Below are positions 1,667-38,874 of a stretch of DNA of 50,599 nucleotides, one piece after another; position 1 is the stretch's first letter, and every line of letters begins with the position of its first letter. Location: NCBI GenBank assembly GCA_025201845.1, contig MU603970.1, positions 43,419-94,017 of the forward strand, given 5' to 3'. Both the position numbers and the translations under genes were made by a program. Under the pieces are notes generated by a model that worked only from the letters and a program-made list of their open reading frames with translations, was not told the origin of the DNA and made no database searches. Source of the DNA: Martensiomyces pterosporus (lineage: Eukaryota > Kickxellomycota > Kickxellomycetes > Kickxellales > Kickxellaceae).

Positions 1667-1834
1667 ATGTGCGACGTCGTCTGCAGGAACAAGTTCAACC
1701 ATGTCGCTGACGGCTTCGGTGTCTTCAGGCTCTACAACTACGCCTGCAACATCTGCGGCGCCATCTTCGACTCGGTGTATGATGCCAACGATCACGTCAA
1801 GGAACAGCACTTCTTCCCGCCCTTGGATGACTGA
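1667..1834 (+). CDS. C2H2 zinc-finger microprotein 1 (55 aa)
   Basis: Single-exon frame of 55 codons starting at an ATG in the context ataaccATG. Seen: one C2H2 finger, C27-x2-C30-x12-H43-x4-H48, with the core CNICG and F at C+4, then the tail EQHFFPPLDD at the very C terminus. The N-terminal 20 residues carry two extra Cys (C2, C6) but no other motif. There is no signal peptide or membrane segment. Three further genes in this window (32200, 33577, 38713 minus) encode proteins of 47-53 aa with identical finger spacing and nearly the same tail. A single classical finger can bind nucleic acid or a protein partner; which applies is unknown. It converges on REX4, which ends 420 bp downstream. I do not recognise a described family. 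Coding status rests on paralogue conservation and the TATA box. Confidence 0.8.
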   Translation: MCDVVCRNKFNHVADGFGVFRLYNYACNICGAIFDSVYDANDHVKEQHFFPPLDD

Positions 1835-2254
1835 ACAGGGATGCCGCGGCTGCGCAATTCGCTTCGTCTCTCTTCTACATAGCGAGTGAACACAAGCTTT
1901 GTACTATAATCCGTGTATATCTCTTCTCTGTATCCTAGACCTGTATAAAAAAGCCCATTTCACATACACTTCATCCTCGCCAGCACCGGCCACAACTACA
2001 CACGCGCCGGTCTTTTCACTTTTCACTTTTCACTTTTCATTAGTCATCCGCAGCCAGAGGTCCGGAGAATCTCATGGCTCGCATTTTTCAATTAGTCCCA
2101 GTTTTTCCTAGTCTTTTCATGCTCTTTTTGATCTTGGGCAAATAACATACACATAAACCCCACACCGCTTACAAACGAGCAAGTGTCTTGTTGAAAGGTG
2201 TATCAAATGCAGCGCTTTGCTCTCCGCAGCCACTCCTAAAATAGAACAAGCAGA
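1835..2254. other. Convergent 3' intergenic region with (CTTTTCA)x4
   Basis: This is the region between the convergent 3' ends of microprotein 1 and REX4. It contains four perfect tandem copies of the heptamer CTTTTCA at 2012-2039. No gene is seen. Confidence 0.55.
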
Positions 2255-3764
2255 TCACCGCTTCTGCTGTTGTTGTTGCTGCTGCTGGATCTCCTGGCGC
2301 AACTGTGCGAACCTCTCCTTCGTCTTGGCCTTTTTCACCTGCACCTTGTACCTCTTGGGTGCCAGCAGTCTCTCCCACTCGTCCTTGACCTTCCTGTACA
2401 GCAGCATGGTGGTCTTGGCATCCGTAACCGACGAGTGCTCTCCCTCCTGAATCGTGATGTTCAGCACACTGGCCGCCAGCTTCCTCAGTGCAGGCGCAGA
2501 CCCCTTGCTCATTTTCTTGAAGCCGGGGAACTTTGCCGTGTCGCGGATCATCAGGGGCGGGTGCGTGAGCATCAGCGCCTTCAAGTCGTGCTGGATCGCG
2601 TGGCCCACGATGACCCGATCCTTGAACAGCTCCGCGACTTGCTCCTGCACCTCCCTGAACGGCCGCCCCTTATCCAAGTCCGACTTTCTGATCCCCGACA
2701 CCCACGTCCGATAGTCTGTGACTTTCTCCGCGGGCCTGACGAATGTGTCCAGCACCACATGCCCGTAGTAGTTGACAACCGACACACGCGCGAGCATCGA
2801 CCTAGACCCCTTGAAGCCAGCACCGACCATCTCGCAGTCCACTGCCAAGAACTTGCCTACTGCCTCGCGCTTCTCCCTCGGGATCGCCGCCGCCGCCACC
2901 ATGGGGCGCATTTTGCTGTTACTCTCCGAAGCGGTGTCGCGTGACTTGACAATGTCTGTGGGCATATCCGCATCGGAGTCGCTGTCTGCATAGGTGGCCG
3001 CAGCAGCTGCCGCCGCCGAGGTTTCCTCCGAGCCTCTCTTGCGCTTGCGGTGGTTGGCCGCTGCCTTGTCCTTGGTCTCTTCGTCCAGTTTCTCGAACCA
3101 GTCGTCGGCATCGCGTGGCAGATCTCTGTTGCCGCCCTTCTCGGTATCATCAGCTACCATCAACGCCAAAGAAAGCGCACGCTGTCGCTCGGCTCTCCTG
3201 GCCGCAGCCTCTGCATCGGCGTCTTCGTCAACTTGCATTGTCTCTGCCACTGCGGGCTTCATGTTTTTCCTTGCCTCTGCCGGTGCGCTCTGTGGCTCTT
3301 CGGCTTGCTCCTCTTCCTCATCTGCTGAATCCCAGGCATACAGGTCCTGCACGTCATCGTCGTTGTATTGGCTCTCATCAGCCGCCTCCTTTTTGGCGCT
3401 GGATCTCTTTTGCTTTTTGGCGCTCGACGACTTGGACTTTTTGCTCTTCTTCTTCCGTGGCCTGCCCTCATCGCCATCATCGCCGTCTGCCAAAAGCGCG
3501 TCTACGAAATCATCCACTCCGTCGTCTTGGCGCGGCTTAGTGGCCTTCTTGCTCTTCGTCTTCGATTTTGACTTTGACTTTGTTATTTTGTCCATCGACA
3601 GAACCACGTCCTGCAGATCATCGTCGAGATCGATGGTGCTGACTGCTCTCTTCTACACAAAGAAATTTGGAAAATGCAGTGTGCTGTTCAGTTTCTGCTC
3701 GCAATTCAAGCAGTATCCTGGGCTGCAAGGCCCCCTATCTTGTCCTGCGTACCTTGGGTGCCAT
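2255..3764 (-). CDS. REX4: REX4-type RNA 3'-5' exonuclease
   Basis: DEDDh exonuclease of the Rex4/ISG20L2 group, which trims pre-rRNA in the nucleolus. Two exons are inferred: 3753-3764 encodes only MAPK, then intron 3653-3752 (GTACGC...TGTAG, 100 bp), then 2255-3652; 469 aa in all. This start is chosen because the frame stays coding-like (acidic S-T-I-D-L-D-D-D) upstream of the next in-frame ATG at 3595, back to an acceptor at 3653. The N-terminal half is Lys/Ser/Asp-rich low complexity, as in nucleolar proteins. The exonuclease domain begins near residue 270: VDCEMVG holds the first D-x-E, VGHAIQHDLKAL the second Asp, and HSSVTDAKTTM the catalytic His and last Asp. The C terminus ends in an eight-Gln run before KR. 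It is transcribed towards microprotein 1. Confidence 0.9.
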
Positions 3765-3913
3765 AGTCTTTTTTCTAAGCCAAAGCGGCAGCAGCTAAGC
3801 AATACAAACAAGGCAGAAATGGGCAACAGAGGAGGGAAATGCACGCTCTACCCAGCGCCCAAACCTGGCGTTTCCAGCACTGAAATAATTTTCCAAAATG
3901 CATACCGAACCAT

Positions 3914-3959
3914 CGGCTCGAGCCGAGCCTCAAGCATGCCGATGAATGCATGCTTGAGG
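3914..3959. repeat. Two adjacent palindromes in the REX4 upstream region
   Basis: Within the 356-bp gap 3765-4120, 3914-3925 is the perfect 12-bp palindrome CGGCTCGAGCCG, i.e. CGG-N6-CCG, the form bound by dimeric Zn2Cys6 regulators. It is followed by a perfect 12-bp stem (3928-3939 with 3948-3959) around an 8-nt loop. The pair lies about 150-200 bp upstream of the REX4 ATG and 160-200 bp past the stop of the Zn2Cys6 gene. It could be an operator or 3'-end structure. Function is inferred only from sequence shape. Confidence 0.5.
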
Positions 3960-4120
3960 TGGCAATCGCCCACAGGTGCTCCGTGTCAGCCAGAGATTTG
4001 ACTGACGCACACAGCAGTGGTCTATCTCATCCAGACGGGGTGTACTGAGGGTGCTTTATTGATAAGCTCTTTCCAGCGTTGATGCATGCCAGAATTAGAT
4101 ACCACCAGCACAAAACGCTG

Positions 4121-7036
4121 CTACTTCAGTGACATTGAAGATAGCTGCTCGGCCGCCTTGGCTACCTCGTCAATGTGCATCGGCTTGAGCAGCTCCGCTA
4201 AACCCCCAATATGCCACACGGATCCCATCTCTTGCAGTGCTCGCCACTGCCGGGCTATGCCCGCCAATGACCTTGTGTGCTCGTTCTTCCATTCCTCGAT
4301 TGGCATCTCGCTCATGTCGTTGGAGTCCATCGCATGCTTGCACTTTCGGAGCTGGCGCAGGAGCACGGTGATAGTAGAGAAGATGCAGAATGGAGCAACC
4401 GTATCCACTCGTCTCAGGGAAATATCGTCGTTCAGTCGAAGGACATCTGAAAGGCGATGTGCGGCGTCCACACACACCCTCCACGACCTTGGCTCAATGT
4501 CTTTGGCAACCAGTCCTTGGCTCCAGGCCGGACCCAGCGCCTTTTGCAGGGCCATGCTGATTTTGATTTCTTCCTCGTCGAGCAGCACCGACGACAATCC
4601 AGTGTCCGTTTCGGTGAACAGCGATGGCCTGTTGGATGAGTGAAGCATGATAACCGCCGGAAAGGTGTAGAGCTGCTGGCTGAAGTAGCGCACACGCAAG
4701 AGGTACTTTTTGTGCTCGATGTTTCCAAAGAACGATGCCTTGGAGGCGTTAAACAGCGGGTCCTTGAGGTTCGCTGCTGCAGGGGGCAGCGTGCACATGT
4801 AATCCAGCTGCTGCGAATACTCGCTAAACATCGGGTCGTCTGAAAGCAGCCTTGGTCTCCTAGGGGGTTTGCAGTCTGAGCCGCTGTTGACGCTAGACGA
4901 TCGAGCGCCGCTGATGAACTTGCCTATCTTTTTTACGAGGTTACAGTGCGGTGTGCGATGCCAGAACGACTGGAGCATTGTTTCCTGCATGGCATCGAAT
5001 CTGGCTGACGGTGTTGCTTGCTCAGTCACTATTCTAGCACTCTCTTCACTGCTACCAGCAGCTGGAATAGAAGCAGGGTCTGTCCAGCACCTGTACCGCA
5101 GGGCTTCGCGAGTGCTCACCCCGCTGTTGCCACCATCCTCAGAGTCGCTGTCTCTACCGTTCATATTTGCAAACACGCTGTGGGCATGAGCGCGGTTTAT
5201 CCAGCTACTCAGATCGTCCCACTCGCTCTCTGGGCACGGCATCCGCGTTCGCACAGCCTCTGCATCAAAGATTGCTGCTCCCCCGCTACGTCCCACATGG
5301 TAGCTGTCCATCTGGAAATTCATCCAAAATGCGCGACGCTTGGTCTCCAGATCCACCCACTCGTCCCATGTCTTTGGCGGCGGCGCATCCTTGTCGTCAT
5401 CCAGCCTGTGCCATCCGAGCTGCAAAACAAAGTTCGCAACTGCACACATGAGCGTGTCATGTGGAACGAATCCTCTGTAGCCACGGACACACATTGTGGT
5501 AATCTGCATGGCGCACACAATGTCTGTGGTGGGCTCTCCGGTGTGCATGACTAACCTTGACATCACTTTGCCAACATGGAGCTCGGTTTCGATGCGGCGA
5601 TCCGTGCCGTCTCTGGCAAAGCGTGAGGACAGCGCATGAATTGCGTTCATGAGCATTGGATCCACCTTGCCTGCAAGGACTTTGCGAAGAAACGAGGACG
5701 GCTGGAGTATAGGGCAGAACGCATAAAAATAGGTGTAGTACGTCAGCACAGCCTCGCAAGTTGCCGAGTCAACCTTGCCAGAGAAAAACTCCTGCATCAG
5801 GTCTCCAATCGGCGGTGGCCTAATGCCGAGCTTCTTCAGTTCGCCTCGGGGTGGATCCAGCACGAGCTGGTCGACAATGTCAATCGTTGGAATTGGCCCT
5901 GAAACGCCGTATGAACGCACTGCAGTAGGCCGGGTTGGTGCTTGCTCGGTAGCAAGTTGTAGCGGAGTGGTTCTTTCACTTGCGCTGTCCTCGGTAGATG
6001 AGTGGCTATCGTCGGTTTCAGGAATAGAAGCAAAGCCCACGCTATTCTCCGCCGAAATCAGGTTTGAGATGTCCGCCGCAGAAGACGCCACTGCCTTGGC
6101 CGCTGCTTGCTTGCCATTTTTGCCGCTGTTATCAGTCTGAGCAGCGGCCAGCACCCTTTGCAGGGCCGCAGAATGCTGTATACCGCGTGAGCCTGTGCTC
6201 GAGGATTGACTGCCCACATGTTTATCGGATTTGCTTTGTGCTTTCGTCTCCTTCGCAGCTGATCGCTTGGAGCTGGCCGCTGGCAGCTTGGGCTTTGGCC
6301 CACGCTTTTTGGATTCCCTCCACACGCATTCCAGGTTCTCCTTCACACAGTTCGCACACCGAACTGTGCCATCAATAAGAATGCTGCTGCCACACCGCGA
6401 CTTTTTCAGGCGGCAGTAGTTGCAGGCTTGCGTTCTTCGCCGTCTTTTGGGTATTTGGTGCTCGAGCAGCGGTACCAGACTGTATGCCATTGCTGTGCGC
6501 ACGTGGTGTGCAGGCAATACCTGGGCAGGCTGCACTTGCGGACGAGGAGGAGGAAGAGGGGTGGGAACTCTGTGCTGAGCCACGGGTGGGGGTCCTGGCT
6601 GAGGGTACGGCTGGTGCCTGCAACCGGAAGAGCTGTAGCCATGTGAGGCTTGGGCTGCACCGACAGCACCCCTGTGACCGTTGTAGGGCGTGCTTGCAGG
6701 ATTGGAAAACCTTGGCGATGACGGAAGGTGAGTACCGTGGCCCTGGGGACTGTGGCTGGGAACGTGCTGCAAAGGGTCTGCTTTTACGGCTGGCGACACA
6801 GTGACTGCTGCAGCTGGCTGCTGCGCATGGTGAACAACAGCCCAGGATGGTACCGAGTTGGGCTCTATGGTTCTGGGTTGTGGTGGGCTGTCCGTTGAGT
6901 AGCTGGAGAGATGGGGTTCTTGCGGCGCATAGGATAGCAAGCTTGCGACCGCGAGTCTTGATTGCGAGGATCGTTTGGGCAGCACAGAGTGTCGGTAGTC
7001 GCCACTTGACGCGGAGCTGTGGAGCTTGTCTTGCAT
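4121..7036 (-). CDS. Zn(II)2Cys6 fungal-specific transcription factor
   Basis: Large single-exon gene; 971 aa from the ATG at 7036. The frame is open to an earlier ATG at 7225 (1034 aa), but the extra sequence reads like a pyrimidine-rich leader, so 7036 is preferred. The N terminus is Ser/Gln/Pro-rich. The binuclear cluster lies near residues 203-237: basic KRRRRTQ, then C-x2-C-x6-C and, after a longer loop, C-x2-C-x6-C, followed by a basic K/R-rich linker. The second half matches the Fungal_trans middle homology region (FFSGKVDS..., YTYFYAFCPILQ, MNAIHALSSRFARDG, ETKRRAFWMNFQMDSY), typical of regulators of carbon or nitrogen use. The loop between Cys 3 and Cys 4 is unusually long (11 residues). 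The regulon cannot be told from sequence; no metabolic cluster surrounds it. A CGG-N6-CCG palindrome lies just past its 3' end. Confidence 0.9.
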   Translation of the reverse strand: MQDKLHSSASSGDYRHSVLPKRSSQSRLAVASLLSYAPQEPHLSSYSTDSPPQPRTIEPNSVPSWAVVHHAQQPAAAVTVSPAVKADPLQHVPSHSPQGHGTHLPSSPRFSNPASTPYNGHRGAVGAAQASHGYSSSGCRHQPYPQPGPPPVAQHRVPTPLPPPRPQVQPAQVLPAHHVRTAMAYSLVPLLEHQIPKRRRRTQACNYCRLKKSRCGSSILIDGTVRCANCVKENLECVWRESKKRGPKPKLPAASSKRSAAKETKAQSKSDKHVGSQSSSTGSRGIQHSAALQRVLAAAQTDNSGKNGKQAAAKAVASSAADISNLISAENSVGFASIPETDDSHSSTEDSASERTTPLQLATEQAPTRPTAVRSYGVSGPIPTIDIVDQLVLDPPRGELKKLGIRPPPIGDLMQEFFSGKVDSATCEAVLTYYTYFYAFCPILQPSSFLRKVLAGKVDPMLMNAIHALSSRFARDGTDRRIETELHVGKVMSRLVMHTGEPTTDIVCAMQITTMCVRGYRGFVPHDTLMCAVANFVLQLGWHRLDDDKDAPPPKTWDEWVDLETKRRAFWMNFQMDSYHVGRSGGAAIFDAEAVRTRMPCPESEWDDLSSWINRAHAHSVFANMNGRDSDSEDGGNSGVSTREALRYRCWTDPASIPAAGSSEESARIVTEQATPSARFDAMQETMLQSFWHRTPHCNLVKKIGKFISGARSSSVNSGSDCKPPRRPRLLSDDPMFSEYSQQLDYMCTLPPAAANLKDPLFNASKASFFGNIEHKKYLLRVRYFSQQLYTFPAVIMLHSSNRPSLFTETDTGLSSVLLDEEEIKISMALQKALGPAWSQGLVAKDIEPRSWRVCVDAAHRLSDVLRLNDDISLRRVDTVAPFCIFSTITVLLRQLRKCKHAMDSNDMSEMPIEEWKNEHTRSLAGIARQWRALQEMGSVWHIGGLAELLKPMHIDEVAKAAEQLSSMSLK

Positions 7037-7897
7037 TCTGCCAGGTGGTTTGAGGAGTTGTGGCAGCAGAAAATGTAAGGTATAGGGTGGGAGAAAAGCA
7101 AGAGAGGGCAGAGGCAGGGTGGCTGAAGAACAATCTCTGTAAACCCGGTATCCCATGCTTTTTTTTTGAACCGGCAATATGCGAACAAGGCATAGAGGAT
7201 TGTCGCATGAAGTGATGTGCAGCATTGAGCGAGGGAGTGGCCCTGGACATCCATCCCTGGCAGCCTTTGTTTGCTATTTGTTCTCAGGTGAACATTTGTG
7301 TCCAGAAAAAATCAGCAAAGGCCGGCCTTCGTGCAGAAAGCGATAGCCACAAGGAGAGCGGGCTGAGTCGACGCAGATAGCCTGCGGACAGGCACATTGC
7401 CTTCCAGGAGCATATATCCCGAATTAGCCAAGCGCATGCCCCGCAACAGCCCGAGCAGTTTCCGTATCATTTAGTGCGTCGCAGATCCATGGAATCGGCT
7501 TTGCGGGACCTGCATTGATGCCCGAGTATGAGAGCGCAGCATTCGGGGTTCGGGTTCATGACGGCAGCTGCTACACAGCCATGCCATTGATACGCCGAAC
7601 CCCACCCGAGATAGCGGTAAGCAGGGCAACACACTCAGACACCTCGCTGTTTCTAGAAGCGCATCCACTAAGACACGAGACATCCCCCACATACATGCCA
7701 TCAGCTAGCACACGCCTGGCGCCAGGTGGACAGGGGATCTGATTAGTCCATCAGCAAATCAAGGCGACTTCCAGTTTGTGCCATTTTCTTTCTCAGGCGC
7801 AGCCAAGCGCTGGCTCCTGCCTCTCCTGGCTCCGCATTGTACACATTTTAAATTTTGTTCGGCTTGTAAACTATCAGTCCCAGCAGATACTGACAGC
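7037..7897. other. Divergent intergenic region, Zn2Cys6 gene / Myb gene
   Basis: This is the shared upstream region of the divergent Zn2Cys6 (-) and multi-Myb (+) genes. It has a 9-bp inverted repeat, GGGGTTCGG at 7545-7553 with CCGAACCCC at 7595-7603. No further gene is recognised. Confidence 0.5.
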
Positions 7898-10372
7898 ATG
7901 AAGGGGCTAGCGCCTGAGCAAAAGAGAGAGCTTCTCAAGGAGATTCGCAGGCACAAGAAGCAGAGCAAGACGCTCCCCTGGTTCCTGCTTTCAGCAAAGT
8001 ACCACATGTCAGCCAAGGCGCTCCAGCGCATATACAAACATGACAAAACAGAGAAAAGGAAGGAACGGAAACTTTCGCGCGAAGTAACCAAAATGGCCAA
8101 CCGCCACTACGACAAATCACGCAGAAGGTGCAACTGGGAGTCGGTGTCGCAGGAGCTCGGGCTTCCAGTTCTGGACTGCTTGAGGCACTTTAGTCCAGAC
8201 AAGGCAAGCTTTGAGCCGCAGAGCATTCGCAATAGGTTCGAGTGGCCAGACGAGTACCTGCCTCTGCTGCAAGCGTTTTCTGAAAAGTACTTTGATGGCA
8301 TCGAAAATATCAACTGGGTGCTGGCTAGTGTCTATCTGAACGTCAAGTATACGGATGCAGATGCAATGGATTTGGACTCGAGCCCGAGCTCTGAGAGTGA
8401 GGAGGCTGCCGACAAGCCAATGGGTGAGGCCGATTCACAAGAGAACGGCGAGGACGACAGGGCACCAGCAAAGCCACAGTGGCAAATGACGCGCGAGATA
8501 TTTTTGCGGATCTGGCGGTACCGTGATGCTGGAGTCCGCTGGGACGACATGCTTGGGAAATTCCCTGAGCTGAATACCGATTTGCTGGCGCTAAGAACCA
8601 AGTTCAGCACGTACAAGTACTGTCTCCGGCTGAAGGGCGAGCTAAGCAGCACCGTTGCAGGGCCGAGTACTGTTGCTGGTAAGCCGGCATCGAAAGAGAA
8701 GCTGACTATTGAAAACATAACCTCCACAAGGTTCAGGCATTTGCAGGAGCTTGTACGCGAGCATGGCGAGGACTGGGATCTCATCAGCGATAAAATGATG
8801 ATCTTGGCCAGCGACTTGAGGCGGTGCTGGAAGGGATACACCGTCGACACCGAGATCACCAGCGGGTGGACTGAGGACGAGGACAGGCTGCTGCTGCAGT
8901 GCGCTGACCTGGGCATGGGCGGTGCTGAGGCTGCCAGGCATATTGGGACTAAGCTGCCCCACCAGTGTGTTGAGAGGATGCGGCTGGTAAAGAAAAAATG
9001 TAAGTGACGCTAGTACCCCTGGCTTCTTCGTATATGCTATTGTTGCTCTGTACAATCTGTGCGCAGTATGCTACTAACTGGGTCCTGTTTTTGTTGCCTT
9101 GTATGCGCCTTGTAGACGCTGTGCCTGAGAAGGCCATCGACCTGCGCAAGGGCTGGAATGAGCAGGACGACGCCGAGCTTCTGCGGCTGACTGAAGTCCA
9201 CACGGATGGCACGTTTATTCGCTGGGAAAAGGTTGCTGAGGTGCTCGGCTACAACCCGCTTTACTGCAGAGCGCGGAAGATCCAGCTGGACAGGGCCAGG
9301 GAGGCGAGCCAGCCAGATAAGCACAGGGACAAGATCTCGCGCGAGGTACAGCGGCAGCACGAGGCGCACGGCAAAGTCGACTGGGGAAAAGTCAGCAAGG
9401 CGACCGGGTTCTCTGTCGTGGGCTGTTTGGAAAACAGCACCTACGGCGAAGGAAAGGCTCGCTGGGTCTATGACCCAGATACATACTCGGAGGAAACGGC
9501 TGACAGCATGCTGGACTTTATCGACAGCAACTACCGCGACCCGCTGCCTACAAACTACACTGCTGTGTCAAATTACATGTGGATCAACATTGACGACTGC
9601 ATCAAGATGCACAAGCTGGTGGACGGCAAGTTCGAGTGGACAGAGGAGGCCATTCAGAGGGTGCGTCAGCGAAGGGAGCAAGGAGCAACATACACCCAAA
9701 TTGCGCGGGAGCTTTCGCCAAAAATGGGGCACAGGACAGTTGCATCCATGCTTTGTCGCACCAACAAGAATATGATTGTAAGACTGACGCCAGAGCAAAA
9801 GAGGCAGGTGCACGAGATCGTTGGCAGGCATGCTGGGAAAGAGACGATCAACGACATTTACAAGCTGGCGCGACAGGAGATGACGGGCTGCGATGGGAAT
9901 GAGGTTTTCGAGTGTGCTCGCAATGCAGTCGTCAAGCACCCGTACCTCGATCAACGACATTTACAAGCTGGCGCGACAGGAGATGACGGGCTGCGATGGG
10001 AATGAGGTTTTCGAGTGTGCTCGCAATGCAGTTGTCAAGCACCCGTATTACCAGAAGGTCGTCAGCAACGCCGACCACGAGTCTATCTTTGACCGAATCG
10101 CGAGCGGCGATGCCACCAACATTGACATCGCATCGGAGCTCGGTGTGCCAGTCAAGCTGATCTCACGCCTGCTGCAAAGCAAGCAGAACGAGAGCTACAC
10201 GATCGAGTGGACCGATGACGAGCTTCAGAAGCTTGCAGAGTTTGTCAAGTCGTCAAAGGGCAAAATGATCCAGTGGGCTCGCCTTTCCAAAATCATTGGC
10301 ACAAAGAGCCGCGACCAGTGCAAGTACAGGTATTACTACCTCAAGGAGTCCAGCTCCAGCTTGCTTGAGTGA
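7898..10372 (+). CDS. Multi-Myb/SANT domain protein, interrupted by a tandem duplication
   Basis: Exon 1 is 7898-8999 and intron 1 is 9000-9115 (GTAAGT, branch CTAAC with A9077, TGTAG). Exon 2 starts at 9116. The start is the first ATG of the frame. At 9845-10047 a 100-bp exon segment is repeated with 3 extra bases, so an unspliced read shifts frame and stops at 10005. Splicing 9904-10006 (AG|GT to AG|GT, 103 bp) would rejoin the frame to the stop at 10372, giving 751 aa. Myb-like units seen: WTEDEDRLLLQ...GTKLPHQCVERM (end of exon 1), WNEQDDAELLRL...CRARKIQL, a degenerate VDWGKVSK unit, and C-terminal WTDDELQKLAEF...SRDQCKYRYYYL. Repeated Myb units suggest a nuclear DNA-binding protein; the target is unknown. 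An acidic spacer (about residues 155-190) separates N-terminal helices. It may be a true gene with a new intron, a frameshifted allele, or an assembly error. Confidence 0.75.
9845..10047 (+). repeat. 100-bp exonic tandem duplication (period 103)
   Basis: Copy 1 is 9845-9944 and copy 2 is 9948-10047, separated by the 3-nt filler CCT. They differ at one base (GTC versus GTT, synonymous). The period is not a multiple of three. Each copy contains AATGAGGTTTTC, so an AG|GT pair occurs 103 bp apart. The segment 9904-10006 starts GT, ends AG, and has TGAC (A9986) 20 nt before the terminal AG with no AG in between. Confidence 0.97.
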
Positions 10373-10402
10373 CGTCCCAGCAGCGTGACTCTTTCGTGTT
10401 TC

Positions 10403-10801
10403 TCATGTGGTAGCCACCCAATGTCTGCATGGTGGGCCACTTCCATGTAACATACATTTCAGCACCTCCAGCAGCTTATCGGCAAATACGCTCTCCCTTG
10501 TGCTGATTTTGATAGATGACACAGATGGGTTGAGCTCAAAAGGAATCCTAGACGGGCTGCAACTCTCCACAAATGTCCTTCAGACATCCGTGTTGTCTAC
10601 CACTTTGGCCTGGTACCCTATAAAGGCTGTGCCGTATACGCATGGAAGAGCAAACCCTCTCCAAGCTCTGCAGACCCCCATGAGTAGTAGCAGTCTTTTA
10701 AATTGGCCAGTTTTTGATGGACACCAGTCCACTCCATGATAAATATAATCGAAAATCAGCCCTAGTGTCCTTTCAGACAGCCTTGCATAGCGCGGCATCA
10801 T
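10403..10801 (-). pseudogene. F-box-like protein relic
   Basis: The minus strand opens with MMPRYARLSERTLGLIFDYI and then LLLMGVCRAWRGFALPCVYG, which resembles the N-terminal F-box-like helices of the large leucine-rich-repeat F-box families of early-diverging fungi (L-x5-I-F-x-Y-I, then V-C-R-x-W-R-x-x-A-L-P-x-x-Y). Translation is stopped by TGA at 10580-10582, after which the same frame continues coding-like (RTFVESCSPSRIPFELNP) to a stop at 10403-10405. Normal members run several hundred residues, so this is a truncated and nonsense-broken copy. Family assignment is by remembered pattern only. Confidence 0.45.
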
Positions 10802-11438
10802 TGTCTAGTTTAGAGAATGTGCAGTAGTTCTGGGATATAGTTGAAAGATGTTGGGTTGGTGGAGGTAAGCAGCTATTAGCAAAAAGCTGAGAGACCGAGG
10901 GCTGTACTTATTGTGAACAGTGGACAGTGGATTGGTTACCACTCAGCAAATGCCTGCAGTTGCTTGCTGAATCGCTGTCAAAAAAACTGCATGATACACA
11001 CAAATACACCTCATGCACATGTAGACCACACATTCACGGGTGCATAGGCTGATGTACAATATGTTGCTGATTTGGCTCTATTGGCAGCACACAATACGTG
11101 CGCAACCATGTCCATGTATTTATAGCACGAGTCTGGAAATGATTAAAACTCGCACTGGGTGGCCCAGTCACAGTAAAGACAAAGAGCCGTAGCAATATCC
11201 TTTAAAAATGCAAAACCGCTAAGCGCAAAGGAATAATAGTAGAAGACAGGAAAGCCAAACCTCCTTGAAAACGCAAATAAAACGCTGAGATGTCTCGCCT
11301 TAAAGCCAGGAAGGGAGGCAAAGGCAGACTGCACTTGGCGAGAATGCCATTTCCGAGGCTACCTGCCAACGCCTTGCCTCCGGCACAGTGCTTACTCCAC
11401 TAGCTCTTATTTGAATAGGGTGTAGCTTTCCTGGAGCA
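10802..11438. other. Intergenic, no gene seen
   Basis: AT-rich stretch with only short unsupported frames. It serves as upstream region for the gene at 11587. Confidence 0.5.
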
Positions 11439-11446
11439 TATAAATA
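11439..11446 (+). promoter_or_regulatory. TATA box of the crinkler-like gene
   Basis: TATAAATA lies 148 bp before the chosen ATG at 11587. It lies too close to the earlier in-frame ATG at 11449 for that to be transcribed as a start, which supports 11587. Confidence 0.55.
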
Positions 11447-11586
11447 CCATGATTGCTGCTGCATCCTCTCTCTGCTCTCCATGCCCCTTCAGCATATTCA
11501 CTATTACTCAATTTATAGTGCCTTTTATAACAAATCAAACTATTCGCGTTCCAGCTATCTCTTGTTATTTCCGTAAAATAATCGAC

Positions 11587-15005: not shown

Positions 15006-15036
15006 TTCCTGTTTACTCTAGTCACCTTTCTTCGAC

Positions 15037-28795: not shown

Positions 28796-29359
28796 AGCAA
28801 GGGTTCAATTTCTAGGTATACACTGGCAAATTGTCGTCACTCTTATGATAAATAGGCGCGAATATATATAGGAGTGAAAGAAAGAACGATACAGAAAGAG
28901 TGTCTGGACAGTGAGCGAATTTCACATCCACCTGGGTCTATTTCTTGAATGTCTCGCCTGGCGAAACACAGCGCACACGTCATCTCTATGCTTTGAGCGA
29001 GCCGCAGCCATCAAATGCCTGCGTAAACCACTCTCCCATCGAGCTGCCGAGCCATTCGCGAGGTCATTGGCAACAGCTGCACTGACCACTCCGTTGATGC
29101 ATGTGGACCTGAGCAGCACCTCGATCCAGTCAACATGGCACATGGACCCCCCAGCTGCCTGGGCACGGACCACTGGTGCTGAGCACCCCTATTGGCTTTG
29201 ACCCTGGGAGTGATCTGGGTACTTCCTCTACAGAGGAAAACGTGTGCACTTTTAAGAGCACCGGTGAGGTACTCAACGAGCGTGCTTGGGCTCGAGCCAC
29301 CTAAAGAGTCTGCACAAGCGAATGGCGCTAGCCAGGTCAAGCCATGCATGCTGGCACTG
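28796..29359. other. Left flank of the contig junction
   Basis: No recognised gene. Short coding-like frames occur on the plus strand from about 29100 and run into the duplicated segment, but no frame stays open and no motif is known. Confidence 0.4.
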
Positions 29360-30671
29360 TTGCTATCCAGCAAGCGCGGCTTTAAGTGCCGGCTCATTGA
29401 GGTATCTCGAGGTACTGGCAGCTGGATTCCAAGGTCTGCCTCTGGTCGGAGCTACTCCAGTACTACCTCACCAACACTTGAGTTTATTCTCTGGGAGACG
29501 GCTGAGAATATCTCCAGAGGCATCTGCGCGCTTTGCCGTGATGCTGTGGGCAAGTGGTCTGGGGTCTCGTTGTACGCTGACAGCGAGCCTGAGCCCTACC
29601 TTGAGGCTGCTGATACCAGTTGCTTGATGAGGCTGACAACTGGTGCTGGTGACAACGTGAGAGAAGAAGAAGAAGAATTTTATTGGCCCGTTTTTGCTAC
29701 AACGTGAGAGAAGAACTCTCCCTCCCTCCCTCCTTCCCTCCCAGCACACTGGCTACGCCTGAAGCCTTGGCAAGCGGTAGTGGTGTTGTGAAGCTGCCTC
29801 TGGCTGCGGACAACGAGACAGCACGTGCAGGCATGACTCCAAGCAGTGGCACTGCAACCGCTGCTGCTCCTACCAAGGGAAATTGCAATCTGCAAGTGAC
29901 CGGGTTCAGGTGGATCACGCCTGTCACGACAGCCGCCGCTCCCCTCCCTATCGCCTCGATGTAGGAAGTCACACTAGCTGGAATAACCACATGGGGGGAG
30001 AGGCCACCCANNNNNNNNNNTTGCTATCCAGCAAGCGCGGCTTTAAGTGCCGGCTCATTGAGGTATCTCGAGGTACTGGCAGCTGGATTCCAAGGTCTGC
30101 CTCTGGTCGGAGCTACTCCAGTACTACCTCACCAACACTTGAGTTTATTCTCTGGGAGACGGCTGAGAATATCTCCAGAGGCATCTGCGCGCTTTGCCGT
30201 GATGCTGTGGGCAAGTGGTCTGGGGTCTCGTTGTACGCTGACAGCGAGCCTGAGCCCTACCTTGAGGCTGCTGATACCAGTTGCTTGATGAGGCTGACAA
30301 CTGGTGCTGGTGACAACGTGAGAGAAGAAGAAGAAGAATTTTATTGGCCCGTTTTTGCTACAACGTGAGAGAAGAACTCTCCCTCCCTCCCTCCTTCCCT
30401 CCCAGCACACTGGCTACGCCTGAAGCCTTGGCAAGCGGTAGTGGTGTTGTGAAGCTGCCTCTGGCTGCGGACAACGAGACAGCACGTGCAGGCATGACTC
30501 CAAGCAGTGGCACTGCAACCGCTGCTGCTCCTACCAAGGGAGATTTCAATCTGCAAGTGACCGGGTTCAGGTGGATCACGCCTGTCACGACAGCCGCCGC
30601 TCCCCTCCCTATCGCCTCGATGTAGGAAGTCACACTAGCTGGAATAACCACATGGGGGGAGAGGCCACCCA
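29360..30671 (+). repeat. 651-bp direct repeat flanking a scaffold gap
   Basis: The segment 29360-30010 recurs at 30021-30671 (offset 661) with only two mismatches (29881/30542 and 29885/30546). Copy 1 ends at the N run and copy 2 begins right after it, so the same sequence ends one contig and starts the next. Each copy holds plus-strand coding-like frames: one ending ...LTTGAGDN before a GTGAGA donor-like site, and an Ala/Thr-rich one ending at a TAG (29962-29964). They are not assignable. An inner 15-nt direct repeat (CAACGTGAGAGAAGAA-like, 45 bp apart) precedes a (CCCT)n tract that ends CCCAG. Most likely unmerged contig overlap. Confidence 0.9.
30011..30020. other. Scaffold gap, 10 Ns
   Basis: Ten Ns, a fixed-size placeholder rather than a measured gap. 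Confidence 0.99.
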
Positions 30672-31913
30672 ACAACCGAAGCCTCTCCTTTTGAAAGCAA
30701 TCATGCAAGAGTGCATTAATTTCCTTCGCACGTTACCACTTCCTTTTGTGTCATGAGCAATTTATAATTGATAAGCTGCATTTTAGCAGAATACCAGAAT
30801 ACCAGAAGCGGAGGTAGATAAGCGGTCATCGAAATCAATGTAGTTATATTGCAGTCTATAAATACGTGACTGCAAACAGCTAGGCGCCAGCAAGCAAAAA
30901 ATAAACAGCTACAGCATAGACACAATTGAGGTCTGAAATAAACCAAATCATGGGCAAGGAAAATAAATAAAAAAAGCGCTTCTTTCGAGCGGGGGGCAGA
31001 AGAGGAAGGGAAATCCAATGCCAATGCCAGTGCCAACAGCATTCTGCGTTGTCTTGGCAAAATGCTGCTATGCCTCTCTAGCAATTGCGATGTCTTGTCG
31101 CTCAATTGGCGCGGGGCTAGTTCGCTGTTTAGGCTCACACTGTGCTATTAAAAAAAACGCCTGCTATGTGATTTCTTCTTTATAGTGTCCTTCTAGTTTT
31201 GGACGTCGTGTTGAACAAAACATCAGTGACCTTTTCAGCTAATCCACAATGTGAGCTGCGCCGTATCCACTTGCCACTGCTTAAGCTGTAGACTTGGCAA
31301 TTGAACCGAGTACAGACTTCCAGCATTCTTTTTATACGCATGTGTGGAATAGACAACTGTCTACGTGCGTGGAGATGAAATCAGCGACCCTTTTTGAACT
31401 CCGATGTTAGTGCTTTGCGAGCGAACGAAGGACGCTGGGTTAAATATAGAACAATTGCTTAATGCATCTCAACAGGCCAACAGACAGAGCCACGTGATAT
31501 GCAGACATTATTATAAGAAGGTATTATTAGGTGCTTGTGCTGCGGCCACCGTTGACACCGTCCTTCCTGCATGTGGAAATAAAAAATTACCACAACATTT
31601 GCGGCTCGCCCAAGCGCAACGATCTCCCCTTTGACAATGCACGGATTCACCTTGTATCGTCAGCTGTCTTTATGGCTCGGCTAGTCAAGCGGGCTAATGG
31701 GGGTGGATGCTGCTGTGTCTGCATCGGCGCAATGCGTATTCTCTACTAGCACAAACAGACATGCGCAGCCCCATCGCTCACTTACCGGTTAATCCCTGTT
31801 GAACTTTGTGGCAGCGGTCAGACAATCGCTTCGCAGCAGCCATACATCCGCGGCTGCCAAGTGATCGAGAAATGATGGGGGTGTGGTGGGGCATGAGTGG
31901 GTGTGGTGGGGGA
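30672..31913. other. Intergenic, AT-rich, no gene seen
   Basis: Only short frames without motifs. The right part (31865-31913) is a G-rich GGGTGTGGTGGG repeat-like stretch just before a TATA box. Confidence 0.45.
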
Positions 31914-31920
31914 TATAAAT
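31914..31920 (+). promoter_or_regulatory. TATA box of C2H2 microprotein 2
   Basis: TATAAAT lies 286 bp upstream of the ATG at 32200, directly after two GTGTGGTGGG words. A long pyrimidine-rich leader follows. Confidence 0.55.
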
Positions 31921-32199
31921 ACCTCTGCCCCCAGATTCGTCATTTTGGATTTGAAAAAAGGCTCTACTCAGCAGCGTATGCCCAAGTCTTACGTCTTTTC
32001 TTATTATTATTTTTTTCCAGTCACGAGCAGACATCTGTGGTTTTCTTTTCCTGCTCCGCTCTTTGCTCTTCTGCTTTTCTTTTTGTATGGAAGATACGCG
32101 CTCATATGCCAATCGACCCCCCCTCCAGCCAGCTTGTATAACCCAGACTCGCCCTTCTCCTGTTGCACACATTCAGTACTCAGACACACCGTTGAAACC

Positions 32200-32358
32200 A
32201 TGGTACCCACACACAAACACACAGCGGGCACAGCTCGCATTCGGCTGGGCAGACAAGAGGCCGAGCTGATGTGCTATCTATGCGGCACAGTGTTTGAATC
32301 GCAAACCGACGCAGCAAACCATCTGCGGGAGCAACATTTCTACCCGCCACTCGACTAG
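32200..32358 (+). CDS. C2H2 zinc-finger microprotein 2 (52 aa)
   Basis: The frame has an ATG in good context (aaaccATGG) and encodes 52 aa. Finger: C25-x2-C28-x12-H41-x4-H46 (CYLCGTVF... then NHLREQH), tail EQHFYPPLD at the end. The first 24 residues (Lys/Thr/Arg-rich) bear no resemblance to the other members, so only finger and tail are conserved. The upstream frame is open far beyond the ATG, but the TATA position and the size of its paralogues favour 32200. It is 1.2 kb from microprotein 3 on the same strand, a loose tandem pair. Confidence 0.75.
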   Translation: MVPTHKHTAGTARIRLGRQEAELMCYLCGTVFESQTDAANHLREQHFYPPLD

Positions 32359-33325
32359 ACAGCACAGAATCTCTGCGACAATGGCGATAACGACAGACTA
32401 GAACATAACGTCCCCTCACCTAACGTATTTCCTTCTCACAGACACGCGCATAGATGCGCTTTTTCAGTTCCTTACTTTATACCCCTCTTCAGGTCAAACA
32501 CAGGAGCCCCTCCCCCTTTGTAGCTGTATATTTTAAATACACACAAGTTCGAATAGAAAGGCATCTGCATCGTCGCCTGTTATCTATGCAGTCTGGCTCA
32601 ATTCATGACATGCCATTGCCCCAACAGTCCCCCACGTTTCCTTTTTGTTCATGGTGCTGGTACTGGTGCTGGGATATAGTGCGATGGAGTTTGGGCACCG
32701 GGGATTATCAAACTCCCTCAGCCTTGTGCGGCTGTCCACCCCTCGGACTTTTCACTGCCAAGCCTTGATTTCTCAACATATATGGCCGGCCCCGCGTGTC
32801 ATATGGCTGTATTCCGATTTTCCGCACTGATCACATCCCCTTCCACACAAAGTGCCCGCCATCTTAGCATGCCCTCCGCGAACAGCCAGCGGCAATGTGC
32901 GGTTATCTTTATGCACTGCACGCTCCTTCTGACAAGTGATGGCTAGACACCGCACAGCATCCTGGACGGCGAGAGAAAAAGCATTGGCAGCGCTGGGTGT
33001 CGCCGAGTGTCTGCTGCTGCGCAAAAAGAAAGCAGCAGCTCTCCACAACAGAAAAAAAGGATCTGCAGCGGAAGAGCACAATAAAGCAAGCTGAAACCGA
33101 GAGCCTAATAAGCGCACTGTCCTGGAATAGATTTCTTGTCTTTCAGCCGTGCAAAGATGGACATTCGGATACGGCCAAATGCCAATCCACATTCTCCGTG
33201 ATACCCCGCTGCACGTCATGCAAGAAAAAAAAAAGAGCAATCGTGCACCGCTATTACACATCACCTTTAGATTACATTTCGTTTTCCGCAGCAGCCTACA
33301 TACACTTCTCCAGTGACTGCTCAGG
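32359..33325. other. Intergenic between two microprotein genes
   Basis: No gene is recognised. The right end is the promoter and leader of microprotein 3. Confidence 0.5.
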
Positions 33326-33332
33326 TATAAAA
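33326..33332 (+). promoter_or_regulatory. TATA box of C2H2 microprotein 3
   Basis: TATAAAA lies 251 bp upstream of the ATG at 33577. Confidence 0.55.
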
Positions 33333-33576
33333 AACTGGCCAGATTCAATGTGCAGTCATTTTCATTCATTCGCTCACAACACTGCCCAGTAGCAAAGCCA
33401 GCCGTCAACCCCGTCTATACGCCCTTTTCTCTCGCCCGGGTCGTAACCTCCCCCCTAGATCAAGTACCCTTCAAGACCGCCACCAGTTATCGAGCATACT
33501 GGCCACCTGCTGCACTCCATCGACGCTCTACCGCCACAGTCGCAGCACCTTGACAAGATCGAGCCACTCACGCAAG

Positions 33577-33720
33577 ATGAATCGCTGCACCGCAGAAACA
33601 CAGGTGTTTGCCGTTCATCTCTGCAACAGTTACGTGTGCAACATATGCGGCAGCATATTCGGCACGGTCAGCGAGGCCGACGACCACATCAAGGAGAACC
33701 ACTTCTTCCCCGACCTGTAA
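33577..33720 (+). CDS. C2H2 zinc-finger microprotein 3 (47 aa)
   Basis: Shortest member, 47 aa. Finger: C21-x2-C24-x12-H37-x4-H42 (CNICGSIF, then DDHIKENH), tail ENHFFPDL, ending one or two residues after the conserved Pro. CNICG is shared exactly with microprotein 1, making these two the closest pair despite lying 32 kb apart. N-terminal Cys 4 and 16 are extra. The ATG is the first of the frame after the TATA box. No other domain. Confidence 0.78.
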   Translation: MNRCTAETQVFAVHLCNSYVCNICGSIFGTVSEADDHIKENHFFPDL

Positions 33721-33973
33721 ACCAGCCGGGCAACTCCCACCGCATTTTCGTATAAGCCATTTATTTCTTAACGGTGTAAATTTGTGTGTATTTGAATAGT
33801 CAAGAAATATATGAAAGAAGAATGAAAGAAACACGAAAAGGGCTGAAATAGGGGAGATGTTGCTGGTGTATGCCTGTGCACGCCCTCAGCCTGTTCGGCC
33901 ATCCCAGTCAAGGAGAGGGAGAGCACGAGCACACAAGCACAAAGGAAAAAGCTGTCAAACAGCACTGGGCTGT

Positions 33974-35416
33974 CTAGCGGTCAACCTCACCGAACACAAG
34001 ATCCATGGTACCAATGACGGCAACGACATCAGCCAGCAGAGCATCCTTCATGAAGGCATTGATGGCGCCAAGGTGATAGAATCCAGGAGCACGGATATGG
34101 CACTTGTAGGGGCGGGTGGATCCATCCGAGATCATGTAGATGCCCATTTCACCCTTGGGCGCCTCAATAGCGGTGTATGTCTCGCCAGCAGGCACGTTGT
34201 AGCCCTCCGAGAACAGCTTGAAGTGGTGGATCAGGGCCTCCATGTTTTGCTTCATGGCGTCGCGGGGAGGAGGAGAAACCTTCCAGTCATCGACCTTGTG
34301 GGGGCCCTCGGGCATCTGGTCAAGGCACTGCTTGATGATGCGGATGCTCTGCCGCATCTCCTCCATGCGGAGCAGGTAGCGGTCAAACACATCGCCCTTG
34401 GTGCCGATGGGCACATCAAACTCCATCCTGTCGTACACCTCGTAGGGCGCCGACTTGCGGATGTCGTAGCGGATGCCGGTTGAGCGGAGCATGGGTCCGG
34501 TGATTCCCCAGTCCAGGGCCTCCTTGGCCGTGATCTTGCCCACATCCACGGTACGCGCAAGCCAGATACGGTTCGAGGTAACCATCTCCTCGACCTCATT
34601 CAGGCGGTCGGGGTACTGGTCAGCCCACTCGTAGATGTCCTGGAGGAGACCGCGGGGGATGTCCTGCGCGACGCCACCAGGGCGCACGTACGCCGAGTGC
34701 ATACGCGCACCGCACACGCGCTCGTAGAACTCCATGCAGCGCTCGCGCTCCTCGAACAAATAGAGGAAGGGGGTCAGACCACCGACGTCCATCACGTGCG
34801 ATCCAACGGCCATGCAGTGGTTGAGGATGCGCGTGATCTCCGCAAACAGCACGCGGATGTACTTGGCGCGCAGCGGAACATCAATGTTCAGCAGCTTCTC
34901 CACAGCCATCGAGTACACCTCCTCGTTGGTCATCATCGAGCAGTAATCCAGGCGATCCATGTAAGGCAGCGCCTGCAGGTAGGTGCGGTACTCCATCAGC
35001 TTCTCGGTACCGCGGTGAAGAAGGCCGATGTGAGGGTCGGCATGCACAATGGCCTCACCGCTGAGCTCCAGGATCAGACGCAGCACACCGTGGGCGGCGG
35101 GGTGTTGGGGACCAAAGTTGATTGTGTAGGGCTTGAGCTCGGTCTTGGCCTCAAGCGAGGACTGCTCCTGGGGTCCAGGCCACTTGTCCGGGCTGATAGA
35201 CATGGGCGTAGCCCAGCCAGGTGGCGCGGTCTTGGTGTCCTCCGGGCGATAGAAAGTCTCCTCGGGGTCCTGCTGGTAGGGGCTCTGTGACTTTGTCTGC
35301 GCGGCGAGGCGTCTGGCACTGGTGCCAAACGACATGCGCGACATCGAGCCTACCAGGCGGCTCCTGGCGCTGAAAGCCGGGCGCGTAGCGCTGAGCAGGT
35401 TGCGAAAGGCCGACAT
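33974..35416 (-). CDS. NDUFS2: NADH:ubiquinone oxidoreductase 49-kDa subunit (complex I)
   Basis: 480 aa, normal for the fungal 49-kDa subunit (nuo-49, NDUFS2). It forms part of the ubiquinone-binding pocket in the matrix arm. The N terminus ([23 protein letters not shown]) is a mitochondrial presequence. Conserved blocks: [74 protein letters not shown], and the C-terminal [22 protein letters not shown]...DLVFGEVDR. Single uninterrupted coding exon. The bases just before the ATG on the minus strand (TTACCTTGTAG|AAC) look like an intron acceptor, so a 5'-UTR intron is possible. Confidence 0.97.
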
Positions 35417-35949
35417 GTTCTACAAGGTAAAATAGTGCACGAAATCAGGCGAGCTCAGCTTTCTGTGCTTTGTTTGATTGAGGAAATCCGCCGAGGAAAT
35501 CGGGCCTTTGGCTGCTCTCCGGGCGAGCAAAGAACCCATGATTGAGGCTTCATTTGGCTCGTGCCGTACCTTTCTTGTTCTTGTTTCTCTATTCCCTTAT
35601 TTTGCGTTTCTGCTTAATCGTGCTCGCCGCTGCTGCTGTTGCAAATGGGGCGAACGAATAAGAAGGAAAGCAGTGTGGTCGGAGGACAAATAAAAGCGTA
35701 TGGCAGAGGGCCAGCTGAATTGAAGGAGCAGAAGACGAGAACGACTGATGAGAGAAAAGGCGGAAAGCAGGGCAGCTGAGTGATTCGGCCTTTTAGTGCT
35801 GGAAGGTGGGTGTTGGCGGAGCAAATTCACTATTTATTCACACCCTAAAAAACAGCACGCCAAAATCCACCTGTTATCTCTGCAGATAAAATCATATCAA
35901 GGCCTGAGCCGACTCACGGCTCGGCAGCGAGCCAGTCACCAGACACGCC
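35417..35949. other. Upstream region of the complex I gene
   Basis: This gap between the metaxin-like 3' end and the 49-kDa subunit start holds no gene that I can support. Confidence 0.5.
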
Positions 35950-36783
35950 CTAGGACGACGCAAAGTACCCTTGCCAGATGCGCAGGGTGTAGTCAAGCAA
36001 AGGCTTGTACTTAGAGTCTGTCTGCGTCAGCGCTGTGCGGATGGGCGACTTCAGTGGTGCCTCGAGTGCGGTGTTGAGGCAGGCGAATACCTGGGCGTCG
36101 AGCAGGCTCGGCCCGCCAGCGAGAAAGTCCCCGTCGCCGAGGAGGACAAGCAGGGAGTCCATTGCACGGAAGGCGTTCTCGTACACCACGTCACCATCCA
36201 GCGCCGCGCCGTACTCTGGCCCACAGCTAACCCGCAGACTGTGTGCTTTCTTCACTGACATGATCCATCCCTGCACGTATCTGATAATCGATGGATATGC
36301 GCCCAGGTATTCCTTGTCGGCGATAGACTCAAAGCCAGCGTGGTCCACCCACACCATGTACTCGATGGCCGGCAAGAGATTATGTGTGACAAGTGTCTGG
36401 TACACCAGCTCATCTTGTAGCCCGCTCTCTGGCAGCTTGTATCCCCCCTTGTCTGCCAAAAAGCCCACGATCTGTGTGCGGTCGAGTGCGGTGCCGTCCG
36501 GGAGCAGCATGAAGGGCAACTCGCCATTCGGAGAAGAGTCGGGCTCGCTGGTGTACTTGGTGTCAAAGTCGAAGTTGAGGAACTTGAGCACTGTCAGAAC
36601 GCGCAGGCACTCGACATCCAGTGTGGGTGATGAGGCTTTGCTGGACGATAGAGGCTTGTAGATGTAGAGCTGTGGCCGGCTGATCTCCTCGGCTGTGAAG
36701 AACGAGGGGATATGGCGTAGGGGGAACTGTGTGAACGATATCGACTTGAGGATTTCGCGCATAGGCGCCTCTGGGGTAGCCAT
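35950..36783 (-). CDS. Metaxin-like SAM-complex component
   Basis: 277 aa from the ATG at 36783 (MATPEAPMREIL); the frame is open further up but without coding character. GST-like architecture of metaxin 2/Sam35: a thioredoxin-like half (LRVLTVLKFLNFDFDTKY, GELPFMLLPDGTALDRTQIVGFLADKGG) and a helical half (PAIEYMVWVD; GDGDFLAGGPSLLDAQVFACL). There is no C-terminal membrane span, which favours metaxin 2/Sam35 over metaxin 1/Sam37. The SAM complex inserts beta-barrel proteins into the mitochondrial outer membrane. It is divergent from TANGO2 with 560 bp between starts, and lies upstream of the complex I gene on the same strand. Confidence 0.85.
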   Translation of the reverse strand: MATPEAPMREILKSISFTQFPLRHIPSFFTAEEISRPQLYIYKPLSSSKASSPTLDVECLRVLTVLKFLNFDFDTKYTSEPDSSPNGELPFMLLPDGTALDRTQIVGFLADKGGYKLPESGLQDELVYQTLVTHNLLPAIEYMVWVDHAGFESIADKEYLGAYPSIIRYVQGWIMSVKKAHSLRVSCGPEYGAALDGDVVYENAFRAMDSLLVLLGDGDFLAGGPSLLDAQVFACLNTALEAPLKSPIRTALTQTDSKYKPLLDYTLRIWQGYFASS

Positions 36784-37199
36784 CGTTCTCTCGTTCTGTC
36801 GGACAAGGCGGCGAAAGTGTGCAGTGCGAGAGGAGTGGAGAAGAGCAAGCGTGGGGCAAGCCAGGCGACCATTTCTGCCCGGAGTTCGGCATGCTGTGGG
36901 TATTTTGTCAGACGTGGAGGCTGTGATGGGCAGTGTCACGTGCTGCGGAACCGGGCCAAAGGAGTGGTGTGTTGCGGTGTTTGGCTCAGCTTTGCAATCG
37001 TATGATGCACTCCTCCACTACTGTTGTTCGTATGCACCCGCTGCCAACACATGAGAATAAGAGCTGCGCATACATAGCGGAGGTGTGGTGGTACACGGAC
37101 ACACATGCGGGCTCGCGCGGGTGTCCCTTGCTTCGTTTGCGAACATTGGTGACTATGTGCACTTTGCGTCGATTTCCAGACAAAAGCCCACGAGGTGCG
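36784..37199. other. Divergent intergenic region, metaxin-like / TANGO2
   Basis: Shared promoter region; nothing else recognised. Confidence 0.5.
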
Positions 37200-37206
37200 T
37201 ATAAAA
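37200..37206 (+). promoter_or_regulatory. TATA box of TANGO2
   Basis: TATAAAA lies 137 bp before the ATG at 37343. Confidence 0.55.
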
Positions 37207-37342
37207 CCAAGGAGCGCAAGCTGGCCGGCCACTCGCTCTTTTCCCTCTTCACCCTGTAATTCTTGCACTCTTAATTGTATCATTACTTGCTATTCCCCTC
37301 CAGCCCTGTACTCTCTATTTATTCGTTTGTTCACCGACAAGC

Positions 37343-38486
37343 ATGTGCATTGCGTTTTGGAAGCTAAGTGAGGGCGGCGGCAGCCATGGATGCCGCGACT
37401 TTGTTTTGGCCTTCAACCGAGACGAATTCCTCGATCGGCCCACAAAGGGGTTCCACGCCTGGCCGCGGCACCCAAACATCTACGCGCCCCAGGACCTCAA
37501 GCCACCCGACGAGTCGCACCGGGGCTCGTGGCTGGGGGTCAGCCGACAGGGCCGCTTGGCCCTGCTGACAAACTTTCGCGAAGCCGTACCACACCATGAC
37601 GGCAAGATCTCTCGAGGCGCACTGGTGCGTGACTTTCTGCTCGACCAGCCCGTGACACCTGGCGGCCAGGAGATCGAAGGCGAGGAGGTCACGGTAGAGT
37701 ATGCCAGGCGGGTGTTTGAGGAGAGGCAGAAATACGATGGGTTTAACCTGGTTCTTTTTGACTTGAGGCCGGGAAGGAGGCAGGCAGTGTATGTGACGAA
37801 CCGCGGCAGCGAAGTGGGGCCTGACGGGACCCCCGGCTCGCTGAAGGTGCTGAGTGCCGGCGAGGTCGTTGGACTGTCGAATTCCACGATCGACAACCCG
37901 TGGCCTAAAGTTCTCAAGGGGAAGAGGGCTGTGACTCAGGTCCTCGAGGTAAGGGCCCTTGCTTGAGCAATCTATTTGGGATACTTTTTTTGCACTTGGC
38001 GATGCGCTGTATAACTGACTGCCGTTTGCTGGTTGCTGCACCTCATAATAGGACACACAGGATGGCGAGATTGGCGATCAGACTAGCGACTCTGCCGACG
38101 AGCAGCTAATCAGCTCTTTGCTGAGCATAATGCGGTAAGTTCTCAAAGTAATCTTCAAAGGAAGCTGGATGTCCAGCACTCCTGCTATCCATACAGAAGC
38201 CGCAATACCACACTGACAAACAGCGCTGTCGCCACCGGCATGTAGCAACCCGGAGCCGTTTTCGCAAGAGAGCCCGCCACAGTGCCTAGATGACCTAGCA
38301 GAATGCATATTCGTTCCCAAAATCAACGGCCTCAACGGACAGCTGGCAGCAGGGGACTACGGCACACGGACTACCGACGTGCTGATTCTGCGCGGGCATA
38401 AACTGACTGTTGCTGAGTGCAATCACCACCAGGCGCCGGAATCCGGCAGGGTACGCACCTCGCATCTTACGCTTGCATCGCAGTAA
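37343..38486 (+). CDS. TANGO2: TANGO2-family (NRDE) protein
   Basis: Three exons: 37343-37948, 38052-38134, 38246-38486; 309 aa. Intron 1 is 37949-38051 (GTAAGG...AATAG, 103 bp). Intron 2 is 38135-38245 (GTAAGT...TGTAG, 111 bp, branch CACTGAC with A38216). Nearer AGs at 38196 and 38223 are either upstream of the branch or 7 nt from it and would lead to the TAG at 38243; only 38245 keeps frame with the conserved C-terminal block. Seen: MCIAFW start with Cys2, AFNRDEFLDRP (the N-R-D-E signature), GSWLGVSRQGRLALLTNFRE, SRGALVRDFL, YDGFNLVLFDL, LSNSTIDNPWPKV, and late IFVPKI with DYGTRTTDVLILRG. The family is linked to haem or lipid handling in mitochondria and ER; its biochemistry is unsettled. 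Confidence 0.92.
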
Positions 38487-38712
38487 GCCACTTCCCACGC
38501 CCGGAGTATAGTTTTCCCAATATGCAGGTGGCTATGCACTAGCGTTTCTGAAAACGGGATAAGCGCTTTTTATTTGGTAGAAATATATGATTACACCCTG
38601 CTAGCGCAATCATTGAGCAGAAGATGCAGGCTGAGAAAGAACAGAGAGAAAAGAGAAGAGAGAAATGGTAGTGTAGACGCACTCAGAGAGCGCCGTGGAT
38701 GGGTCCTGCTGG

Positions 38713-38874
38713 CTACAAGGGGTCGAATAGGTGGTTCTCGCGCACATGGTCGGCTCCTTCCTGCTCGGACGTGAACGTGGCGCCGCAGACCTGGCAGATC
38801 CAGTCGAGCTGGCAGCGGAAGTGGACCATCTTTGCAACGGTGGATCTAGCGAGCTTGCCCACCTGGTACAGCAT
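38713..38874 (-). CDS. C2H2 zinc-finger microprotein 4 (53 aa)
   Basis: 53 aa from the first ATG in frame (38874); an inner ATG at 38829 would give 38 aa still containing the whole finger. Finger: C27-x2-C30-x12-H43-x4-H48 (CQVCGATF, then DHVRENH), tail ENHLFDPL. The Cys and His positions equal those of microprotein 1 exactly, which supports the longer start. The N terminus is basic (MLYQVGKLARSTVAK). Most diverged member in the finger (Trp-Ile before Cys). It is transcribed towards TANGO2, 226 bp from its stop. Confidence 0.75.
   Translation of the reverse strand: MLYQVGKLARSTVAKMVHFRCQLDWICQVCGATFTSEQEGADHVRENHLFDPL

Follow-up and report, generated by a model that had tools for sequence, protein, structure and literature searches.

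A dispersed family of short genes for one-finger C2H2 proteins in Martensiomyces pterosporus and other Kickxellales

We analysed a stretch of 50,599 nucleotides from Martensiomyces pterosporus (assembly GCA_025201845.1, contig MU603970.1, positions 43,419 to 94,017), referred to here as the window. Four short open reading frames (ORFs) in it encode proteins with a single C2H2-type zinc finger followed by a hydrophobic tail, and a TATA box lies upstream of each. Translation of the four ORFs reproduced the protein lengths given in a first-pass annotation of this DNA. In coordinates of the window, the features are as follows.

1473..1478, + strand: TATAAA of member 1, ATG 194 bp downstream
1667..1834, + strand: member 1, one-finger protein of 55 aa, with orthologues in Coemansia and Dipsacomyces
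31914..31919, + strand: TATAAA of member 2, ATG 286 bp downstream
32200..32358, + strand: member 2, one-finger protein of 52 aa, start uncertain
33326..33331, + strand: TATAAA of member 3, ATG 251 bp downstream
33577..33720, + strand: member 3, one-finger protein of 47 aa, the closest paralogue of member 1 in a search of its own genome
38713..38874, - strand: member 4, one-finger protein of 53 aa
39047..39052, - strand: TATAAA of member 4, ATG 178 bp downstream

In all four ORFs the finger has the form C-x2-C-x3-F-x8-H-x4-H, with the tail directly after it and near the stop codon. The narrower description given at first, C-x2-C-G-x2-F with 12 residues from the second Cys to the first His and then H-x4-H, also fits all four, although two of three further members found elsewhere in the genome lack the G that follows the second Cys. 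A K/R-E-Q/N-H step, originally given as E-Q/N-H and as shared by the four, is present in the four window members but not in those three. The tail had been written as a terminal aromatic-x-P-L. A shared tail does exist, but this formula is inexact, since member 3 ends in FFPDL, and [FL][FY]-[PDA]-[PD]-[LV] describes it better; one or two extra residues follow it in members 1 and 2. The tailed motif, in an expression composed after the members had been seen, was matched four times in the window and not once in any of 200 dinucleotide-preserving shuffles; for the finger spacing by itself the mean was 0.005 matches per shuffle.

The genome, 17.4 Mb in 216 contigs with the window as contig C42, 43419-94017, was then the subject of homology searches. 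A one-finger query returned seven members at E below 0.001, namely the four in the window and three on contigs C188, C93 and C23, of 44, 44 and 54 aa. With three further queries and E allowed up to 1, six, seven and five of the seven were recovered and no additional matches. The family thus has at least seven members, as the genome searches scored only the best candidates. The DNA pattern H-x4-H-[FL]-[FY]-P was matched 21 times; five of these matches were known members and the other 16 had no C-x2-C at the right spacing. On viral contigs, 12 stretches matched a pattern and none encoded a relative.

Four of the seven members share 37 kb of one contig, which suggests local duplication. Duplication of larger segments was considered and rejected: when the 3 kb regions holding the seven members were compared by blastn, only 80 bases were similar, shared by the ORF of member 1 and that of member 3, and the flanks retained no similarity. 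This match is listed a second time owing to the overlap between the regions of members 2 and 3. The family tree does not order the paralogues: none of its 11 inner branches was strongly supported and 10 were open; members 2 and 4-7 sit on long branches.

Three protein-database searches, in which 29, 6 and 3 candidates were scored and 8, 5 and 3 had E up to 1, yielded eight distinct proteins beyond the window. One, GQ54DRAFT_296418 of M. pterosporus, is identical to the 54 aa member on contig C23. Six come from Coemansia (RSA 520, thaxteri, RSA 2706, RSA 2603, aciculifera and erecta) and one, marked partial, from Dipsacomyces acuminosporus. All eight are named hypothetical, and one bears the UniRef name C2H2-type domain-containing. 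By sequence, the seven from other genera appear to be orthologues of member 1, with 52-57 aa and 62-73% identity; relatives outside this genome were found in two genera. Martensiomyces, Coemansia and Dipsacomyces all belong to the Kickxellales, family Kickxellaceae, and the genes are taken as real because relatives of member 1 have been retained in two further genera of that family.

Member 1 and all seven orthologues start with Met-Cys and carry G-[VM]-F-R-L-Y ahead of the finger, so the N terminus is constrained within the group. The N termini had been called unrelated, which holds among the paralogues but fails among the orthologues of member 1. The associated idea of N termini free of selection is not supported, as the N terminus is conserved in the only group with orthologues. 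No orthologues of members 2-7 were seen in searches that needed shared five-residue words and annotated proteins, so that their absence is a weak indication.

The TATAAA-to-ATG distances of the seven members are 194, 286, 251, 178, 121, 128 and 269 bp; those of the four in the window, 178-286 bp, come close to the 172-286 bp reported earlier. TATAAA occurs at 100-300 bp in 7 of 7 members and before 2 of 11 control gene starts (Fisher 0.002), or 3 of 11 when counted within 400 bp (Fisher 0.004), the controls being other gene starts in the window that were picked from long ORFs and are unconfirmed. The three members outside the window serve as an independent check, and all three have TATAAA. The member on contig C188 has two such boxes, 243 and 121 bp before the ATG (L004:1213-1340). 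TATAAA was also the top hexamer in the promoters (7 of 7). Other shared k-mers of 6-9 bases reached at best p of about 3e-5 to 1e-3 with 1665 to 4004 tested per length, and none stands out; the stress element AGGGG/CCCCT had a density of 3.0 per kb, compared with 1.8 per kb in the control promoters, a signal too weak to be retained. Some members also have tRNA genes as neighbours: the C188 member lies between genes for tRNA-Val and tRNA-Phe (L004:999-1074, L004:1739-1812), and the C93 member is followed, about 20 bases on, by a tRNA-Ser gene (L005:1613-1696). As a family trait this was dismissed, with such neighbours at only two of the seven loci and none at the other five or in the window.

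Alternatively, each ORF could be the terminal exon of a longer C2H2 protein, with exons further upstream having escaped notice. Six of the seven members begin at the first in-frame ATG following a stop, which argues against longer proteins. In five, this stop lies 52-152 bp past the TATA box, with no in-frame ATG ahead of the assigned start, and a simple pattern for donor-like splice sites found none in the leaders and ORFs of six. The database relatives, at 52-57 aa and with the same Met-Cys start as member 1, are likewise short. Member 2 is the uncertain case: its TATA box is followed by no in-frame stop, an ATG in the same frame lies 222 bp upstream and would give a protein of 126 aa, and either an intron in the 5′ untranslated region or the 126 aa form is possible. 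Its leader (31914-32199) holds three upstream ATGs, two of them out of frame, and one GTATGG. Two further points temper our view of the ORFs as complete genes. The only in-frame stop of member 3 sits inside its TATA box and leaves 129 codons open, yet without an in-frame ATG before the assigned start. A database search open to proteins of about 50-157 aa returned three proteins, all of 57 aa, which counts for little since four orthologues already known within these limits were not among them. Taken together, six of seven members give no sign of a longer protein, in line with the first-pass view of short genes, and we consider the exon explanation very unlikely.

Another possibility is that member 1 is the one functional gene that matters and that the remaining six are neutral copies or remnants. 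Orthologues of member 1 are the sole relatives found outside the genome, the long branches on which members 2 and 4-7 sit would fit, and the two 44 aa members, although used in the query, were not returned by the protein search and are thus probably unannotated. All six, however, have kept their frame open, their zinc ligands in place and a TATA box upstream although their sequence identity is low, which would be unexpected under neutral decay, and this explanation seems to us quite improbable. The codon statistics can be set beside this. GC content at codon positions 1, 2 and 3 was 0.55, 0.37 and 0.74 over the seven ORFs, and at the third position it ranged from 0.60 to 0.85 per ORF, compared with 0.68-0.90 in eight long genes. 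The ratio of nonsynonymous to synonymous substitution rates (dN/dS) was 0.22-0.62 over 28 codons in the 10 of 21 paralogue pairs with finite dS, the other 11 being saturated. This is mild support for genes of their own, because picking paralogues by protein similarity favours low dN. With seven loci, relatives in other genera and a TATA box at every locus, the proposal of a genuine family of short, dispersed genes held up.

As regards the finger itself, the Cys and His ligands, at C-x2-4-C-x12-H-x3-5-H, and the core aromatic residue are invariant in all 13 aligned sequences, and structure prediction returned, with moderate confidence, a C2H2 finger fold with a helix. From the ligands and the predicted fold together, the finger probably binds zinc. 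Matches to known C2H2 families were weak. PF00096 scored 17.7, 17.7 and 15 bits for members 1-3, below its curated cut-off of 25.2, with member 4 not among the matches listed; among 12 scanned members PF00096 was matched in 9 and PF13894 in all 12. Weak matches to PF17003 Actin_micro (12 of 12), DUF7128 (10 of 12) and an FmdB-type zinc ribbon (7 of 12, best E 0.0015) were ascribed to the CxxCG motif; for member 1, the scores of those listed were below the cut-offs.

The family shares with ordinary C2H2 fingers the Cys/His spacing, the conserved Phe and the predicted helix and fold, but it differs in charge. Averaged over the family, the finger carries a net charge of -2.7; the corresponding figure for 32 ordinary C2H2 fingers from this genome is +2.8. 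At the contact positions of the helix (-1, 2, 3 and 6) there are 0.14 K/R/H per finger in 14 family sequences and 1.59 in the 32 ordinary fingers. At helix positions 3 and 6 most residues are acidic, position 4 has Ala instead of the usual Leu in 11 of 14, and an aromatic residue or Leu stands immediately after the last His. There is a single finger per ORF and no tandem array, so the family lacks both the basic contacts and the tandem fingers of DNA-reading C2H2 transcription factors. Because the fingers are negative on average and positions 3 and 6 mostly acidic, sequence-specific DNA binding appears unlikely.

These features bear on the possibility that the proteins are mini regulators that bind nucleic acid, the finger reading DNA or RNA with the help of basic N termini or competing with larger finger factors. 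The standard spacing, the predicted fold and the weak PF00096 and PF13894 matches, below cut-offs for members 1-4 where scored, would agree with such a role. The mostly acidic recognition helix, the net negative finger, its occurrence singly, and a hydrophobic tail where many ordinary fingers carry TGEKP-like linkers do not, and the own-genome searches at E up to 1 gave no larger protein with finger and tail. We therefore did not retain the earlier suggestion of competition with larger finger proteins for DNA, and regard a nucleic-acid-binding role in general as unlikely.

The same acidic helix and the aromatic residue or Leu just past the last His could instead point to a ubiquitin-binding finger of the UBZ type, coupling a stimulus to protein turnover. 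The family finger may resemble UBZ fingers in these features; its Cys-to-His spacing appears to differ from that of UBZ fingers. No UBZ-named family was among the Pfam matches listed (25 of 30 families, 12 members, E up to 1, weak matches filtered), and none was among the 50 structure matches listed, which excludes nothing. We think this role decidedly improbable.

The reading to which we give slightly more credence than doubt is that of a standalone one-finger C2H2 family, so far seen only in the Kickxellales, in which each protein has its own small TATA-type gene and acts as a protein-binding adaptor or inhibitor. The charge, the few basic contacts and the hydrophobic tail suggest protein binding: finger and conserved tail may form a protein-binding surface rather than a DNA reader, and the proteins would be small zinc-stabilised adaptors or inhibitors of a partner protein. 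The N terminus, which differs between paralogues, might set the partner, the location or the stability. In yeast, TATA promoters are a mark of regulated genes, and because of their TATA promoters the proteins may be inducible, perhaps by stress or stage as first suggested. The proposal in its complete form, namely inducible, zinc-stabilised inhibitors or adaptors specific to the Kickxellales that dock through acidic finger and hydrophobic tail, choose their partner by the paralogue's N terminus and do not bind nucleic acid, is more doubtful and is put forward tentatively.

Small zinc finger proteins have been described elsewhere. Haloferax volcanii encodes many one-domain zinc finger micro-proteins of <70 aa with one predicted zinc-binding domain (PMC6562870, PMC11241148). 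The likeness is one of size and style only: those proteins are archaeal and have two C(P)XCG motifs, these are fungal and C2H2, and no relationship is claimed. MicroProteins, including the plant mini zinc finger proteins, are small single-domain regulators that act via protein contacts (PMC6003976, PMC13087070), and the present proteins are alike in being small and single-domain and could regulate in the same manner. MicroProteins, however, relate to a larger protein, whereas nothing beyond the seven short genes came back from the searches of this genome; a larger relative with an intron-split or more divergent finger could have escaped them. Searches of an open-access library listed no paper whose title and abstract opening describe this family; most subscription papers fall outside that scope.

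Short genes are readily overlooked by annotation in early-diverging fungi, and this family was recognised from raw sequence alone and holds across genera. The charge of its fingers is the opposite of that of ordinary fingers in the same genome. If the proteins do bind other proteins, the family would show in minimal form a C2H2 module that has left nucleic acid behind, with genes small enough to be expressed or deleted one by one.
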